A stretch of DNA of 52,778 bases from Myxococcales bacterium (GTDB lineage Bacteria; Myxococcota_A; Bradymonadia; REDH01). The notes beneath the pieces were generated by a model, which saw only the letters and a list, made by a program, of their open reading frames with translations, was not told where the DNA came from and did not search any database. Below are positions 24,012 through 30,961 of the stretch, one piece after another. Within the stretch, counting starts at the first letter, position 1. The number at the start of each line of letters is the position of its first letter. Both the position numbers and the translations under genes were made by a program. The stretch covers positions 1 through 52,778 of the forward strand of contig CANMDT010000008.1 in NCBI GenBank assembly GCA_947496715.1, in the 5' to 3' direction.

Positions 24012-24488
24012 TCAAGGTCTAGGTTTCCGCTTGGAGCGGAAGAACTCAGTAAGCAGGCTGGCGGACTCTTCTGCCAGGATGCCGTTTCGTACATCTACCC
24101 GATGATGGGTCCTCGGGTCGTCGCAGATCCGGAAAAGGGATCGAGCGGCGCCACCTCGGGCATCGGGAGTTCCATATGTCAAAGAACGGAGTCGGGATTG
24201 GACGATGGCTCCTGCGCACATGGGGCAGGGTTCAAGTGTTACAAAGAGTTCGGCCTCATCGAGTCGCCAGTGGCCGAGTTCGGCCGCCGCGGCTCGCAGC
24301 GCTACAATTTCTGCGTGGGCAAGGGGGTCACCGGTGAGCTCTCGCTCGTTCCGGCCGCGACCCACGATGCGGTCGCCGAGCACCACGATGGCTCCGACGG
24401 GGACATCGCCTGCCGCGCCTGCCGCTTCCGCCTCTCTCAAGGCTTCGCGCATGTACTTCAGGTCACGCTCGGTCACCTCGTCCCACAT
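24012..24488 (-). CDS. tadA: tRNA-specific adenosine-34 deaminase TadA
   Basis: The 158-residue zinc enzyme converts wobble A34 to inosine. HAE near 58-60 supplies the zinc ligand and catalytic glutamate, and PCPMC near 87-91 supplies the two cysteines; VPVGAIVV and the MRSLTYG-like SRLRSLTYGTPD segment are also TadA hallmarks. I chose the ATG at 24488 because GGAGAGG lies five bases upstream; the GTG two codons earlier overlaps that Shine-Dalgarno. The start lies 14 bases past the 3' end of tRNA-Arg(ACG), the enzyme's canonical substrate, on the same strand. A tRNA-Ser gene follows nine bases after the stop. Confidence 0.96.
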   Translation of the reverse strand: MWDEVTERDLKYMREALREAEAAGAAGDVPVGAIVVLGDRIVGRGRNERELTGDPLAHAEIVALRAAAAELGHWRLDEAELFVTLEPCPMCAGAIVQSRLRSLTYGTPDARGGAARSLFRICDDPRTHHRVDVRNGILAEESASLLTEFFRSKRKPRP

Positions 24489-24502
24489 CGCCACCTCTCC
24501 AG
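24489..24502 (-). promoter_or_regulatory. Shine-Dalgarno of tadA abutting the tRNA-Arg 3' end
   Basis: The short spacer between tRNA-Arg(ACG) and tadA holds GGAGAGG (24494-24500) with a five-base gap to the ATG at 24488. No terminator or promoter fits in the spacer, so tadA is most simply read from the tRNA transcript. Confidence 0.6.
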
Positions 24503-24576
<74 letters not shown>

Positions 24577-24972: not shown

Positions 24973-26856
24973 TCAGACCGGCCGCGACCCTTGAAGCAGC
25001 TTCAGCGTCTCGGCGAGCGACACAGGGCGACCCCAGAGGTAGCCCTGGCCGTGCTGGCAGCCCATGGCGCGCAGCGCCGCCGCCTGGCTCTCGGTCTCCA
25101 CGCCCTCTGCCGTTACCTTCATGCCGAAGGCCGACGACATCGCCACCACGGCCTCGCAGAGCGCCCGTCCGCGCGGCGTCTCGTCGAGCTGCATCGTGAA
25201 GGAGCGGTCTATCTTCACATGGTCGAAGGGGATGTTCTGCAGGTGGCTCAGCGCCGCGTGGCGCGTCCCGAAGTCGTCCAGCGCCAGGCCGAAGCCGGCA
25301 CGCTTGAGCGCGACCAGAACATCGGGCGCGGGTGTGTCGCCGTCGAGCCACTCGCTCTCCGTCACCTCGAGCACCACCTGCTCGGGAGAGATGCCGAAGG
25401 ATGCGGCCATCGCAGTCGTCTCCTCCGCCATGCCGTCGCGCAAGAGCTGCCGGAAGGAGACATTCACGCTCAGCGTCATGCCCGAGAAGAGCGCCGCCTG
25501 CTCCGCGAGTGTCCGGAAGGCGATCCGGAGCACCCGGGTGCCGATGATGTCGATGAGGTTGCTCTGCTCCGCCACCGGGATGAAGATGGCAGGCATCAGC
25601 TCCGAACGCGCCGCGCCGCGAAGACGGGCCAGCAGCTCGAAGCCCTTGATGCTGGTGTCGCCGAGCCGGACGATGGGCTGGAAGTGGGCCTCGAGTGCAT
25701 CCTCGTCGAGCGCCTGCTTCAAAAGACGGGCCACGACGCCCCGTTGCCCAGCGCCTGAGGTGGCGCGCTCGCCGTGGACAACGCAGCGGTCGCGGCCAAG
25801 CCGCTTCGCAAGGTCGACAGCCTCCAGCGCCTGGGCAGCTGCGACGTCTACCGAGGATTCAGAGGGCACCCAACGGGCGAGCCCAGCAGACAGGGTGAGC
25901 GTACTCGCCAGCTCGCCATCGGGCTGACGGATTGCCTGAAGAATCTCGGCGGTGAGCTCGCGGGCCTCCGCTGCGGGCTGGGTCATCAGCACGGCGAACT
26001 GGTCGCCACCGTACCGCACCAGCGTGCCGTTTCCTGCCAACGCACCGGTGATCCGCTTGGCTGTCTCGCGGATGGGGTCATCGGCAGCATGCTGGCCCAC
26101 CAGATCATTGTGGAGGCGGAAGTGGTCGATGTCGAAGATGGCGACGGTATGCTCTTTGTCGCGCGCCAAAGCGTCTGCGGAGATGCGCTCACACAGGTCG
26201 CTCAGCCGCCGGCGGTTGCCGAATCCCGTCAGGAAGTCGGTCGAGGCGCGGCTGCTGCGCTCCATCTCGTTCCGGTCGCGCTCGATCGCGATCGCTGCGA
26301 GGTGTGCGACATGGTCGACCAACGTCAGGTCGTCCAATGAAGGCTCACGGCAGTCGCCATAATACATCCCGAACACGCCCAGTAGCCGACCCTCTCTATC
26401 GAGCAGCGGGGTGCTCCAGGCGGAGGAGATGCCGTGCGCTGCCGCGAAGGGACGGAAGGGCTCCCAGAGCGGGTCGGTGGTGACATCGAGGGAGACGACC
26501 CGCTTGGAGCGGAATGCCGCGGTGCCGCAGCTGCCGGCCTGGGGTCCGGGCAGCATCCCATCGATGGCCTCCTGGAAGTCAGGCCGGAGGTTGCGGCCGT
26601 AGCCGCCTTTGCGGAGCGACTGTCACTCGGGATCGAAGAGCAGCACCGAGGCCATCATCTCCGGCAGCGTCTCTTCGCCGAAACGAGCAATTGCACTCAG
26701 CGTCTCGTGGACTGTCGCGCCGCGCGCCACAAGCTCGAGCCGCCGCGGTTGCCCAGCGAGTAGCGTGGAGGGGTCGATGCCGTTGGCCGACGCTGCGCGG
26801 AACGACGAGCCAGCGGTATCAAGGGAGGGCGACGTCTCAGCTGCAAGTGAAATCAT
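24973..26856 (-). pseudogene. GAF-GGDEF-EAL cyclic-di-GMP protein interrupted by an in-frame TGA
   Basis: One frame is open from an ATG at 26856 (GGAGG six bases upstream) except for a single TGA at 26623-26625. The upstream part ends LPEMMASVLLFDPE and the downstream part continues QSLRKGGYGRN then AIDGMLPGPQAGSCGTAAF, together a normal GAF domain in which the TGA sits where a glycine is usual. Next comes a GGDEF domain with the degenerate active-site GGDQF, then an EAL domain with its expected residues: ELL, NVS, LEVTES, DDFGT, KID, AEGVE and QGYLWG. The phosphodiesterase half therefore looks functional and the cyclase half inactive. The downstream part could be translated alone from the ATG at 26556, which has AGGAGG eleven bases upstream. 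Sequencing error is possible. Confidence 0.8.
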
Positions 26857-26991
26857 GCAGTCCTCCATGTTGGTGCCCGAGCGGATGCTGGGACAGGGGA
26901 GGAGACTACGCCCTTGCCAGACCAAGTAGCAAGCCTACGTCAGACCCAGTTCTGTTCCGTTTGCGACCAAAGATATGCGCCGCGCCCCGCC

Positions 26992-28251
26992 TCAGCCGAT
27001 GCGGTCGAAGCCGGTGTAGGGCCGAAGTGCGTCGGGGATGGTGACGCTGCCGTCGGCGTTCTGGAAGTTCTCGAGGATCGCCACCAGCGTGCGGCCAACT
27101 GCCAGGCCACTGCCGTTGAGGGTGTGGGCAAACTGGGCCTTCCCGCTGCTGTCGCGAAAGCGGATGTTGGCACGGCGCGCCTGGAATGCCTCAAAGTTGG
27201 AGCAGGATGAGATCTCGCGGAAGGTGTTCTGCGAGGGGAGCCAGACCTCGAGGTCGTAGCACTTGGCCGCGCCGAAGCCGATATCGCCCGTGCAGAGGCC
27301 CATGACCCGATAGGGGAGTTCGAGGCGCTGCAAGATGGTGCAGGCGTCGTTCACCAGCTTCTCGAGTTCGTCATAGCTCTCTTCGGGCGGGGCGATCTTC
27401 ACCAGCTCGACCTTGTTGAACTGGTGCTGCCGGATGAGGCCGCGGGTGTCGCGCCCATGGCTGCCCGCTTCGCGGCGGAAGCAAGGCGTGTAGGCGACCA
27501 TCTTGAGCGTGCTGGGGAGGCTCTCGAGGAGGGTGTCGCGGTAGAGGTTGGTGACCGGGACCTCTGCCGTGGGGATGAGGTAGAGGTTGTCTGTCTTGAA
27601 GAGGTCTTCTTCAAACTTCGGCAACTGGCCCGTGCCGGTCATGGCGTCGGCATTGACCATGAGGGGCGGGAAGATCTCTTCGTAGCCGTGCTCGCGGGTG
27701 TGGATGTCGAGCATGAAGTTGATGAGGGATCGCTCGAGCCGGGCGGCCTGGCCGCGCAGGAAGCAGAAGCGTGCACCGGAGACCCTCCCCGCCTGCTCGA
27801 AGTCGAGGATGCCATGCTTTTCGCCGATGGCGACATGGTCCAGCGGGGCGAAGCCAAGCGGCTTGATCTCACCGTGGGAGCGGACGAGGTAGTTATCGTC
27901 GGCGCTCTCGCCGACGGGCACGGAGTCGTGGCAGAGGTTGGGGATGCGCAGGAGAAGCGGCGGGATGGCCTCTTCGATGATGCGCTTCTCCTCTTCGAGC
28001 GCCTTGCCGCGGTCTGCCATCTCTTTGAGGGTGGCGCGGAGGGTGTCGAACTCGGGGGAACCGGGCTTGAGGGCCTTCATGCCGTCGGAGGCCCGCTTCT
28101 GCTCTGCGCGGAGGGTCTCGTAGTCGCGGATGGCGCGCCGGCGTGCCTCTTCGAGCTGCTCAAGGGGAGCGAAGTCGAAGGCGACCTGGCGCTGCGCGGT
28201 CTTGGTCTTCACGATGTCGAGGTGTTCTGCGACGAAGCGGAGGTCGAGCAT
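26992..28251 (-). CDS. serS: Seryl-tRNA synthetase
   Basis: The 419-residue class II synthetase has the N-terminal two-helix coiled-coil arm (about 25-105) that grips the long variable arm of tRNA-Ser. [10 protein letters not shown], motif 2 [20 protein letters not shown], the [11 protein letters not shown] serine-site segment and motif 3 [17 protein letters not shown] are all intact. Length is normal. It lies just upstream of all four serine tRNA genes, separated only by the broken c-di-GMP gene. No T-box or other leader is visible before the start. Confidence 0.97.
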
Positions 28252-28283: not shown

Positions 28284-28312
28284 AAAAAAAAACCCCGGTC
28301 CGAAGACCGGGG
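28284..28312 (-). terminator. Rho-independent terminator of tRNA-Leu(AAG)
   Basis: On the minus strand, CCCCGGTC-TTCG-GACCGGGG (28293-28312) forms eight perfect pairs closed by a UUCG tetraloop and is followed by nine T residues (28284-28292). It begins four bases after the tRNA-Leu 3' end, so the tRNA is insulated from serS. Confidence 0.93.
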
Positions 28313-28315
28313 TAG

Positions 28316-28399
28316 TGCGAGGGGCGGGAGTCGAACCCGCACGGCGTTTAAGCCACAGGATCCTTAGTCCTGCGTGTCTGCCAATTCCACCACTCTCGC
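28316..28399 (-). tRNA. tRNA-Leu(AAG), an A34 leucine tRNA
   Basis: Class II tRNA on the minus strand opening GCGAGAGTGGTGGAATTGG, with variable arm and T-arm GCGGG-TTCGACT-CCCGC, discriminator A. The anticodon arm is CAGGA-CTAAGGA-TCCTG, giving anticodon AAG with U33 and G37. Most bacteria use GAG for this box. The inner arm GGA-CTA-x-GGA-TCC is identical to that of tRNA-Arg(ACG) except at position 35. Acceptor pair 6-67 is A-C. Inosine at 34 by TadA would let it read CUU, CUC and CUA. Confidence 0.9.
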
Positions 28400-28489: not shown

Positions 28490-28909
28490 TTACTTGGAGC
28501 CCGAGCCCGAACCAGTGGGAGCCGAGCCCGAACCAGTGGGAGCCGAGCCCGAGCCTGCAGCGGGGGCCACAGGAGCCTCGACCGTCTCTGCAGGGGCAGC
28601 CGAGCCAGCAGCAGGAGCGGTTGCGCCCGAGCCAGCTGCGATGGGGGCTTCTGCTCGCTTGAACTCGCCGTCGGCCGCCGAGTTCCGCGAAGAACCCATG
28701 TAGGCCAGAACCAGGTTGAGTACCAACCAGAGAGCAGCGGTACCCATCGTCAGGTTCTTCATGATGGGAGCTGCGCCACCACCACCGAAAGCCTGCTGCT
28801 GCGAACCGCCGCCCAGTGCCATGCCACCACCGCGGCCTGCCTGAAGCAGCACCACGAGGATGAGGAAGATGCAACAGAAAATGTAGACCGTGTAGAGAGC
28901 TGCGATCAT
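28490..28909 (-). CDS. secG: Preprotein translocase subunit SecG with long low-complexity tail
   Basis: The 139-residue protein has two membrane segments (about 2-22 and 50-68) flanking the SecG loop LLQAGRGGGMALGGGSQQQAFGG. SecG assists SecYE in protein export. I chose the ATG at 28909 over a GTG three codons earlier. Typical SecG has 75-110 residues; here the C-terminal 65 residues are an alanine/glycine/serine/proline tail with repeated GSGSAPT units. It closes the gap-pgk-tpiA-secG series, an order seen in many bacteria. Confidence 0.93.
   Translation of the reverse strand: MIAALYTVYIFCCIFLILVVLLQAGRGGGMALGGGSQQQAFGGGGAAPIMKNLTMGTAALWLVLNLVLAYMGSSRNSAADGEFKRAEAPIAAGSGATAPAAGSAAPAETVEAPVAPAAGSGSAPTGSGSAPTGSGSGSK
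28503..28544. repeat. Two tandem 21-bp repeats in the secG tail
   Basis: Two identical 21-base units starting GAGCCCGAACCAG encode GSGSAPT twice, followed by a partial third unit. Slippage of such units would change the length of the SecG tail without a frameshift. Confidence 0.85.
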
Positions 28910-29000
28910 GAAAACCACGCGTTGCTACGGGGCCGTAAATCGGCTCGGTAGTAGGGATTCGGGGGGCGAAGACTAGAGAGAATCGGCGGGTTGCGCAAGG

Positions 29001-29750
29001 TTAGAGAGCGCCCGCGGCGATGATGCTCCCGAAGGCGATGCCGTCGAGGCTCGCGCCGCCGACCAATGCCCCGTCCACATCGGACTCCGAGAGCAGCGAG
29101 GCCGCAGTCTCGGGCTTCACAGAGCCACCGTACTGGATGACAACCGCTGCCGCCTGGGCGCCGAAGCGGATGGCCAGCCGGCTCCGGATGGCGGCGTGCA
29201 CCTCCTGGGCCTGCGCTGCCGTGGCGTTGCGGCCGGTGCCGATCGCCCATACCGGCTCGTAGGCGATGGTGATGCCGTCGAGCGTGCCAATCTCTGCAAG
29301 GCCGGCGTCGACCTGGCGATTCACCACCTCGAGGGTTGTGCCGCCGTCGCGCTCGGCGAGCGTCTCGCCCACGCAGAGGATTACCTCCAGCCCCAGCGCG
29401 CGGGCGGCGGCTACCTTGGTCGCCACAATGGAATCTGTCTCGCCGAAGAGCTGGCGCCGCTCGGAGTGGCCGACGAGGACGCCGATGGCACCCGCCTCTT
29501 TGAGCATCCCGTAGGAGCTCTCGCCCGTGAAGGCGCCCGATGCTGCGGGGTGGCCGTTCTGCGCGAAGAGCGCGACCGAACTCCCTGCAATGGTGGCAGC
29601 GACGTCGCTCAGCCAGATGGCCGGCGGCGCGATGCCCACCCGCACCGAAGGGGTCTGGCGGCTCGCAGCGACGCAGGCCTCCGCCAGTGCGATCGCCGAC
29701 GACCGCGTAGTGTTCATCTTCCAGTTTCCGCAGACGAAGTTGGTGCGCAT
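29001..29750 (-). CDS. tpiA: Triosephosphate isomerase
   Basis: The 249-residue TIM barrel interconverts DHAP and glyceraldehyde-3-phosphate. All active-site features are present: the lysine in NWKMN, the histidine in GHSERR, the glutamate in the YEPVWAIGTG loop-6 region, and the phosphate-binding YGGSV and GALVGGASL. The ATG overlaps the pgk stop in TGATG, which suggests coupled translation. Confidence 0.97.
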   Translation of the reverse strand: MRTNFVCGNWKMNTTRSSAIALAEACVAASRQTPSVRVGIAPPAIWLSDVAATIAGSSVALFAQNGHPAASGAFTGESSYGMLKEAGAIGVLVGHSERRQLFGETDSIVATKVAAARALGLEVILCVGETLAERDGGTTLEVVNRQVDAGLAEIGTLDGITIAYEPVWAIGTGRNATAAQAQEVHAAIRSRLAIRFGAQAAAVVIQYGGSVKPETAASLLSESDVDGALVGGASLDGIAFGSIIAAGAL

Positions 29751-30961
29751 CAGTTCTCCTCGAACTTGTGGCCGGCCCGCAGGGCAGCAATGCCGGGGAG
29801 GTCGCGCCCCTCGACGAACTCCAGGCTGGCGCCGCCGCCCGTCGAGACGTGGCTCACATCCTTGGCGCGGCCGGTCGCTACGAGTGCGGCAACCGAGTCG
29901 CCGCCGCCGATAACGGAGACGCCATCGTTATCCGCCACGGCGCCAGCGATCGCGAAGGTGCCCTTGGAGAAGGGGGCCCGTTCAAACACGCCGAGCGGGC
30001 CATTCCAGAAGATGGTGTTGGCCTTTGCGATGTGGCTCTCGAAGATCGCTACAGTCTTGGGGCCGATGTCGAAGGCAGCAGTGCCAACCGGCACCTCGAC
30101 ACCTTCGGTTACGACGCCCTCTTCGGCCGTGATCGTGGGGGCGACGACATGGTCGACCGGGAGCACAAGGCGGGTCTTGCGGGCCTCGGCGCTCGACATA
30201 AGCGAGCGTGCGACATCGAGCTTGTCGGCCTCGACGAGGCTGTTGCCCGTGCCGATGCCCTTGGCGCGGAGAAAGGTGTAGGCCATCGCGCCGCCGATGA
30301 GCAGCGTGTCGATGCGGCCGATGAGGTTTTCGATGACCTTGATCTTGTCGGAGACCTTGGAGCCGCCGAGGATGGCGATGTAGGGCTTCTCCGCGCCCTG
30401 CATGAGGCCGCCGAGGAACTTGAGCTCCTTGGCAACGAGCAGGCCGGCGGCGCGGCGGCCGTCGGGGAAGTGGCGGACCATCGTGTAGGTCGATGCGTGC
30501 GCCCTGTGCGCGGTGCCAAAAGCGTCGTTCACATAGACCTCGGCCAGCGCGGCGAGGTCGGCAGCGAAGACCTGGTCTCCCTGCTCCTCTGCCTCGTGGA
30601 AGCGGAGGTTTTCGAGGAGGCAGATGCCGCCTTCGGGGAGGTCGCGGATGACCTTCTTGGGGCCGTCGCCGACACAGTCTTCGGGGAAGACGACCTCAGT
30701 GTTGAGCAGCTTGGCGAGGTGGGCTGCGATGGGCTCAAGGGAGAGCTTCGGGTCGTGGCCCTTGGGCCGGCCGAGGTGGCTGCCGAGGACGATACGGGCC
30801 CCCTTCTCGCGCAGGTAGTTGATGGTGGGGAGGGCCGCGGTGATGCGGGAGTCATCGGTGATGACGCCATCCTTCATCGGGACGTTGAAGTCGACCCGGA
30901 CGAAGACGATGCGGCGGTCGACATCAATCTGCTCGAGAGAGCGGATACCTGAGAGTTCCAT
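29750..30961 (-). CDS. pgk: Phosphoglycerate kinase
   Basis: The 403-residue kinase makes ATP from 1,3-bisphosphoglycerate. RVDFNVPMKDG, SHLGRPKG and LENLRFH lie in the N-lobe; AILGGSKVSDKI, GGAMAYTF and the C-terminal GGGDSVAAL nucleotide-binding region are intact. It lies 15 bases after gap and overlaps tpiA by one base, so these form an operon for lower glycolysis. Confidence 0.97.
   Translation of the reverse strand: MELSGIRSLEQIDVDRRIVFVRVDFNVPMKDGVITDDSRITAALPTINYLREKGARIVLGSHLGRPKGHDPKLSLEPIAAHLAKLLNTEVVFPEDCVGDGPKKVIRDLPEGGICLLENLRFHEAEEQGDQVFAADLAALAEVYVNDAFGTAHRAHASTYTMVRHFPDGRRAAGLLVAKELKFLGGLMQGAEKPYIAILGGSKVSDKIKVIENLIGRIDTLLIGGAMAYTFLRAKGIGTGNSLVEADKLDVARSLMSSAEARKTRLVLPVDHVVAPTITAEEGVVTEGVEVPVGTAAFDIGPKTVAIFESHIAKANTIFWNGPLGVFERAPFSKGTFAIAGAVADNDGVSVIGGGDSVAALVATGRAKDVSHVSTGGGASLEFVEGRDLPGIAALRAGHKFEEN

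Follow-up and report, generated by a model that had tools for sequence, protein, structure and literature searches.

A leucine tRNA with the anticodon AAG is encoded in the window, the whole stretch of 52,778 nucleotides analysed here. It raises the question of how such a tRNA arose in this bacterium and whether its wobble adenosine, A34, is converted to inosine (I34) for the reading of CUU and CUC. The initial annotation had regarded its anticodon arm as a copy of that of tRNA-Arg(ACG) and had suggested that the leucine tRNA gained recognition by the deaminase TadA. The features concerned are the following:

24012..24494, minus strand: tadA, tRNA adenosine-34 deaminase, the presumed editor (NF008113, 152.6 bits, above cut-off)
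24502..24576, minus strand: tRNA-Arg(ACG), the standard TadA substrate, loop CTACGGA (ARAGORN; pattern match)
26992..28251, minus strand: serS, downstream neighbour (Pfam seryl-tRNA synthetase domains)
28284..28312, minus strand: strong intrinsic terminator (CCCCGGTCTTCGGACCGGGG plus a T run), directly after tRNA-Leu(AAG) (from sequence)
28315..28399, minus strand: tRNA-Leu(AAG) gene, gene proper 28316-28399 (ARAGORN; RF00005; kept in 6/6 family genomes)
28356..28372, minus strand: anticodon arm CAGGA-CTAAGGA-TCCTG, with wobble A34 at 28365, C32 at 28367 and A38 at 28361 (from sequence)
28490..28918, minus strand: secG, directly upstream of tRNA-Leu(AAG), marking the putative ancestral tRNA-Leu(GAG) locus (Pfam SecG, 1.4e-16)
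29001..29750, minus strand: tpiA, syntenic neighbour (Pfam TIM, 1.5e-84)
29750..30961, minus strand: pgk, syntenic neighbour (Pfam PGK, 1e-144)

The gene is a well-formed leucine tRNA gene with the anticodon AAG and the arm first described. It was detected by ARAGORN and by the Rfam model RF00005 (49 bits against a cut-off of 29); the sequence gives a full cloverleaf whose variable arm is long and whose discriminator is A73, at 28316, and CCA is not encoded. A sequencing slip at position 34 is ruled out, as three other sampled genomes of the genus share this arm as far as the anticodon, and the anticodon is AAG in all six genomes (three genera) of the family, f1. A single mismatch, A6.C67, occurs in the acceptor stem in the genus; the corresponding pair is A-U in the relative G005 and G-U in G004. 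Elsewhere in the window, at 24973-26925, a GAF-GGDEF-EAL gene seems to be interrupted, its ORF starting part-way into the GAF domain (profile position 52), with a stop codon just upstream near 26623.

The genome of the window (3.56 Mb in 244 contigs, 93% complete) yielded 38 tRNAs, among which those for leucine have the anticodons AAG, CAG, TAG, CAA and TAA. A genome-wide search did not find tRNA-Leu(GAG) among these 38, an undetected copy in the unassembled parts of the genome being possible, and tRNA-Leu(AAG) is the only CUU/CUC reader found. The only other A34 tRNA among the 38 is tRNA-Arg(ACG), and the purine-34 tRNAs found in other boxes are of the GNN type (Ser GGA, Pro GGG, Ala GGC, Val GAC). 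A relative of the same class assembled in one contig, G013 (99% complete, 54 Rfam hits), has typed leucine tRNAs that include AAG, CAG, TAG and CAA, and GAG was not found among its typeable tRNAs. Replacement of tRNA-Leu(GAG) was seen, among the tRNAs found or typed, in the genome of the window, in this relative and in all but one of the 48 matched named AAG genomes. The tRNA-Leu(UAA) of G013 was likewise not found among its typeable tRNAs; its gene may contain an intron.

Codon usage was taken from 26 genes that a simple codon score predicted in the window, with 11,223 codons in all. The 1252 leucine codons comprised 692 CUC, 365 CUG, 112 CUU, 57 UUG, 23 CUA and 3 UUA. CUC leads the leucine codons of these genes with 55%, ahead of CUG; in GC-rich bacteria CUG is usually the dominant one. 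Since CUC and CUU together dominate, tRNA-Leu(AAG) carries most of the leucine decoding. Most of this load falls on a C-ending codon, which A34 is expected to read poorly and I34 well. In RpoB, CUY codons make up 0.60 of leucine codons where the genome has AAG and 0.50 where it has GAG (p 0.011 by the Mann-Whitney test, kinship ignored), and higher CUY use with tRNA-Leu(AAG), in the same direction, has been published for Lactobacillales (PMC13249217).

The position of the gene bears on its origin. In family f3 (G042, G057 and G154) a tRNA-Leu(GAG) adjoins secG-tpiA, and in f1, to which the window belongs, the same place is taken by tRNA-Leu(AAG), in the order pgk-tpiA-secG-tRNA-Leu. In family f19 the tRNA beside secG is GAG in G034 and AAG in G327. 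These locus matches indicate at least two conversions in place. The ancestor was probably a tRNA-Leu(GAG) of the usual bacterial kind that stood at the secG locus and was modified there: G34 would have become A, and U32 with G38 or U38 would have become C32 with A38, the order of these mutations being presumed. The full tRNAs of a balanced Myxococcota set (35 AAG and 33 GAG) show the two end states. The AAG loops are CTAAGGA in 34 cases and TTAAGGA in one, with A38 in 35/35, and the GAG loops are TTGAGGG (22) or TTGAGGT (11); there is zero overlap between the classes at position 38, and at position 32 T occurs in one AAG tRNA only.

The distribution of AAG and GAG over 379 Myxococcota genomes is mosaic: f1 and f2 carry AAG, f3-f7 of the same class carry GAG, other AAG groups occur elsewhere, and f19 is mixed. 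The GAG/AAG state changes seven times on a tree built from the RpoB proteins of 55 genomes (reading frames chosen by BLAST), and at least five of these changes fall on well-supported (starred) branches. A38 accompanies A34 in five of five independent pairs (sign test p 0.0625, the lowest value possible with five). The conversion can be followed in G305, which lies among GAG genera of f32 and has kept the stem CTAGC/GCTAG of its sisters, with three changes in the loop from TTGAGGT to CTAAGGA. As far as the tRNA and RpoB sequences tell, the switch from GAG to AAG arose several times independently in Myxococcota, with repeated remodelling of the loop.

The arm could instead have been copied from tRNA-Arg(ACG) through gene conversion or recombination. 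The arginine arm reads TCGGA-CTACGGA-TCCGA and therefore, as first described, only position 35 separates the two loops; moreover, GGA-CTA...GGA-TCC is common to tRNA-Leu(AAG) and to the arginine gene 3.8 kb away. However, the stem ends are unlike, CAG/CTG in the leucine tRNA and TCG/CGA in the arginine tRNA, and the stem CAGGA/TCCTG recurs unchanged in the tRNA-Leu(CAG) of the genome. The same loop stands on different stems in other AAG tRNAs; in G004 and G005 the arginine arm is CGGT-CTACGGA-ACCG, and the leucine tRNA has CAGA or AAGA before CTAAGGA. The A31-U39 pair common to tRNA-Leu(AAG) and tRNA-Arg is dispensable in AAG tRNAs (C31-G39 in G305, T31 in Prochlorococcus). Stem and loop were thus not found to be common by descent with tRNA-Arg(ACG): with a leucine-type stem, the secG locus of GAG and no need of A31-U39, the description of the arm as a copy had to be given up, and such a transfer is highly improbable. 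Only the loop positions, C32 and A38, appear to have converged on the TadA motif, the stem having stayed leucine-type.

Another source to be weighed is a duplicated tRNA-Leu(UAG) or tRNA-Leu(CAG) that became AAG by a change at position 34, GAG being lost afterwards. The loop of the genome's own tRNA-Leu(TAG), CTTAGGA, differs by one base, and the identity of the whole gene is 0.86 to its own tRNA-Leu(CAG) compared with 0.71-0.77 to the GAG tRNAs of relatives. Against this, the site beside secG-tpiA is the GAG site in f3, the UAG loop in G004 and in f2 is TTTAGGT rather than one with C32/A38, and G305 retains the GAG stem of its sisters. We regard this origin as unlikely. The likeness of 0.86 to tRNA-Leu(CAG) may be due to a conversion that took place later, inside the genus, and it gives no support to tRNA-Arg as a donor.

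Conversion of tRNA-Leu(GAG) in place is therefore the preferred origin. The resulting loop, CTAAGGA, fits the streptococcal editing motif YUAMGRA (PMC11472039). In Streptococcus, TadA edits tRNA-Leu(AAG), with complete conversion to I34 in vivo (PMC11472039, PMC13249217), tRNA-Leu(IAG) has been shown in S. mutans, and S. pneumoniae TadA is active in vitro (PMC13249217); many Streptococcus loci, L251, L267 and L273 among them, carry exactly the 17-nt arm seen in the window. The loss of GAG, the dominance of CUC, the YUAMGRA loop and this identity with an edited arm all argue for the suggested gain of TadA recognition and, on the same grounds, for I34 decoding of CUU and CUC. The new loop would fit TadA, TadA would deaminate A34 to inosine, and the C32-A38 pair may have been selected for TadA binding. 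With TadA-made I34 the tRNA would read CUU and CUC and could read CUA. As regards decoding, the parallel with eukaryotes drawn at the outset is a fair one, but tRNA-Leu(UAG) is also present and would make the reading of CUA redundant. We put at roughly 0.85 the probability that tRNA-Leu(AAG) is the sole CUU/CUC tRNA, that it descends in place from tRNA-Leu(GAG) at the secG locus, and that its loop was remodelled to fit TadA, with A34 becoming inosine.

It might be supposed that A34 stays unmodified, CUU being read well and CUC via A.C wobble with the help of superwobbling by tRNA-Leu(UAG). Unmodified A34 tRNAs discriminate variably between U and C (PMC11066159), Mollicutes survive with an unmodified A34 tRNA-Arg (PMC3711424), and a Mycoplasmopsis has the CTAAGGA loop with tadA not detected. 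But CUC, at 55% of leucine codons, would place a heavy load on weak pairing, a TadA is present in the window, the loop fits its motif, and the identical arm is edited in Streptococcus, which makes an unmodified A34 quite unlikely here. The Mycoplasmopsis case is locus L306 of M. agalactiae (G417), in which A34 is likely to be unmodified.

The TadA of the window was then considered as the presumed editor. It matches the chain 2b3j_A of the S. aureus TadA-RNA structure at 4.6e-37, and its catalytic residues are intact (HAE and PCxxC; H57, E59, C87 and C90 in E. coli numbers). Its gene, at 24012-24494, does lie about 4 kb from tRNA-Leu(AAG), as initially stated, but this nearness fails as a functional hint: the distance is 2-4 kb in the family and 2.2 Mb in G013 of the next family, and the nearness is therefore no evidence of function. 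S. pyogenes tRNA-Leu(AAG) is edited by its own TadA and not by that of E. coli (PMC11472039); therefore a nearby TadA is no proof. In the S. aureus structure C32-A38 contacts Lys106 and Asn123, and A31-U39 contacts nothing (PMC3711424). The strictness of E. coli TadA for C35 has been ascribed, as likely, to R26 and R152 (PMC10586758). Relative to E. coli, the window TadA has R26 replaced by G, R152 by K, K110 by R and N127 by H. K110R and N127H, at the C32-A38 contacts, count against editing. R and H at these positions (S. aureus Lys106/Asn123) also occur in G002 and G003, and position 127 is T or P in the relatives G004 and G005. Position 152 is not decisive: R was found in 6/28 GAG and 1/26 AAG cases, and G005 combines R152 with AAG. 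The TadA column EPC-P-MC is suggestive as a marker of AAG lineages (22/24 versus 6/25) but differs in only two to four of five independent pairs, which is not significant.

A pattern scan with one genome per species extended the comparison beyond Myxococcota. It gave at least 119 loci, of which 118 are tRNA-Leu(AAG) by ARAGORN among the matches listed; these come from at least about 19 phyla, single hits in metagenome-assembled genomes possibly including contamination. A34 outside tRNA-Arg is less rare in bacteria than was assumed in the initial annotation, which had it normally confined to tRNA-Arg(ACG). Of 50 of these genomes, 48 gave a match to the full pattern, and GAG was also present in only one of the 48 among the matches listed. 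This is locus L321 of G420 (Myxococcales RS415), the only named genome among these matches with both AAG and GAG leucine tRNAs; its GAG gene is at the edge of a contig and may be contamination.

A38 is present in 109 of the 118 tRNAs among the matches listed. As a control, the GAG tRNAs listed for the sample of Bacillota, the phylum of Streptococcus, were read by eye and all have TTGAGGG. The other nine AAG tRNAs among these matches, in Caldisericota, Cryosericota, some Clostridia and one Patescibacteria, retain TTAAGG followed by G or T (L258, L262, L310, L311, L323, L332, L339, L352 and L354). In seven of these nine genomes TadA is without the conserved Lys110, and in most of them without Asn127 as well. 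Among the matches listed, TadA is basic at 110 in 2/9 genomes lacking A38 versus 63/64 AAG genomes with A38 (Fisher p 1.7e-7, kinship ignored), and Asn127 is found in 2/9 versus 56/64 (p 1e-4); the lineages lacking A38 are not all independent, and these p values therefore overstate the case. Loss of tadA from these genomes was rejected, a match being found in 9/9, as was loss of A38 from their tRNA-Arg(ACG), CTACGGA being kept in the four found. Their TadA must therefore still handle C32-A38 somehow, and it is either differently specific or decaying. It seems reasonably probable that C32-A38 recognition is a gate passed many times: a GAG tRNA turning into a TadA substrate would rebuild its loop to C/U32-A38, and the old U32-G38 loop would go with loss of the TadA lysine and asparagine.

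I34 in bacterial tRNA-Leu is already known. It has been shown in Oenococcus oeni, as cited in PMC8266599, and in Streptococcus; "almost all" bacterial tRNA-Leu(IAG) genes have been placed in Bacilli, with Mycoplasma and Prochlorococcus added (PMC13249217), and Leuconostocaceae and some Firmicutes have been mentioned (PMC8007984). Like the tRNA-Leu(AAG/IAG) of Streptococcus/Lactobacillales and O. oeni, that of the window is the sole CUY reader replacing GAG, with a CTAAGGA loop and tadA present; the arm is shared with Streptococcus and the higher CUY use with Lactobacillales. It differs from them in its GC-rich Myxococcota host, in serving CUC as the main codon, in independent origins and in a divergent TadA, and its editing is predicted. 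With tRNA-Arg(ACG) it has in common C32-U33-A34 and G36-G37-A38 and presumably the enzyme, and it differs in A35 instead of C35, the leucine body, the long variable arm and the secG locus. As in the eukaryotic tRNA-Leu(IAG) made by ADAT2/3, I34 would replace G34 in the CUN box; bacterial TadA, in contrast, is homodimeric with one or two substrates, and evolved this use independently. As far as we found, the occurrence in Myxococcota, the repeated conversion in place with loop remodelling and the co-variation of TadA are new; no paper on tRNA-Leu(IAG) in Myxococcota was found, and an earlier mention may exist.

Taken together, the case that tRNA-Leu(AAG) of the window is edited is strong, as judged from comparative sequence data. 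It bears on the path from a single-substrate bacterial deaminase to the eight-substrate eukaryotic one. With at least five switches, closely related GAG and AAG sisters, a signature visible in the loop and candidate residues in TadA, substrate expansion becomes testable in vitro, within reach of a swap of a few nucleotides or two amino acids. If the gate reading is true, the leucine box with I34, as in eukaryotes, would be common in bacteria, having evolved repeatedly in many phyla, and not a speciality of Bacilli.
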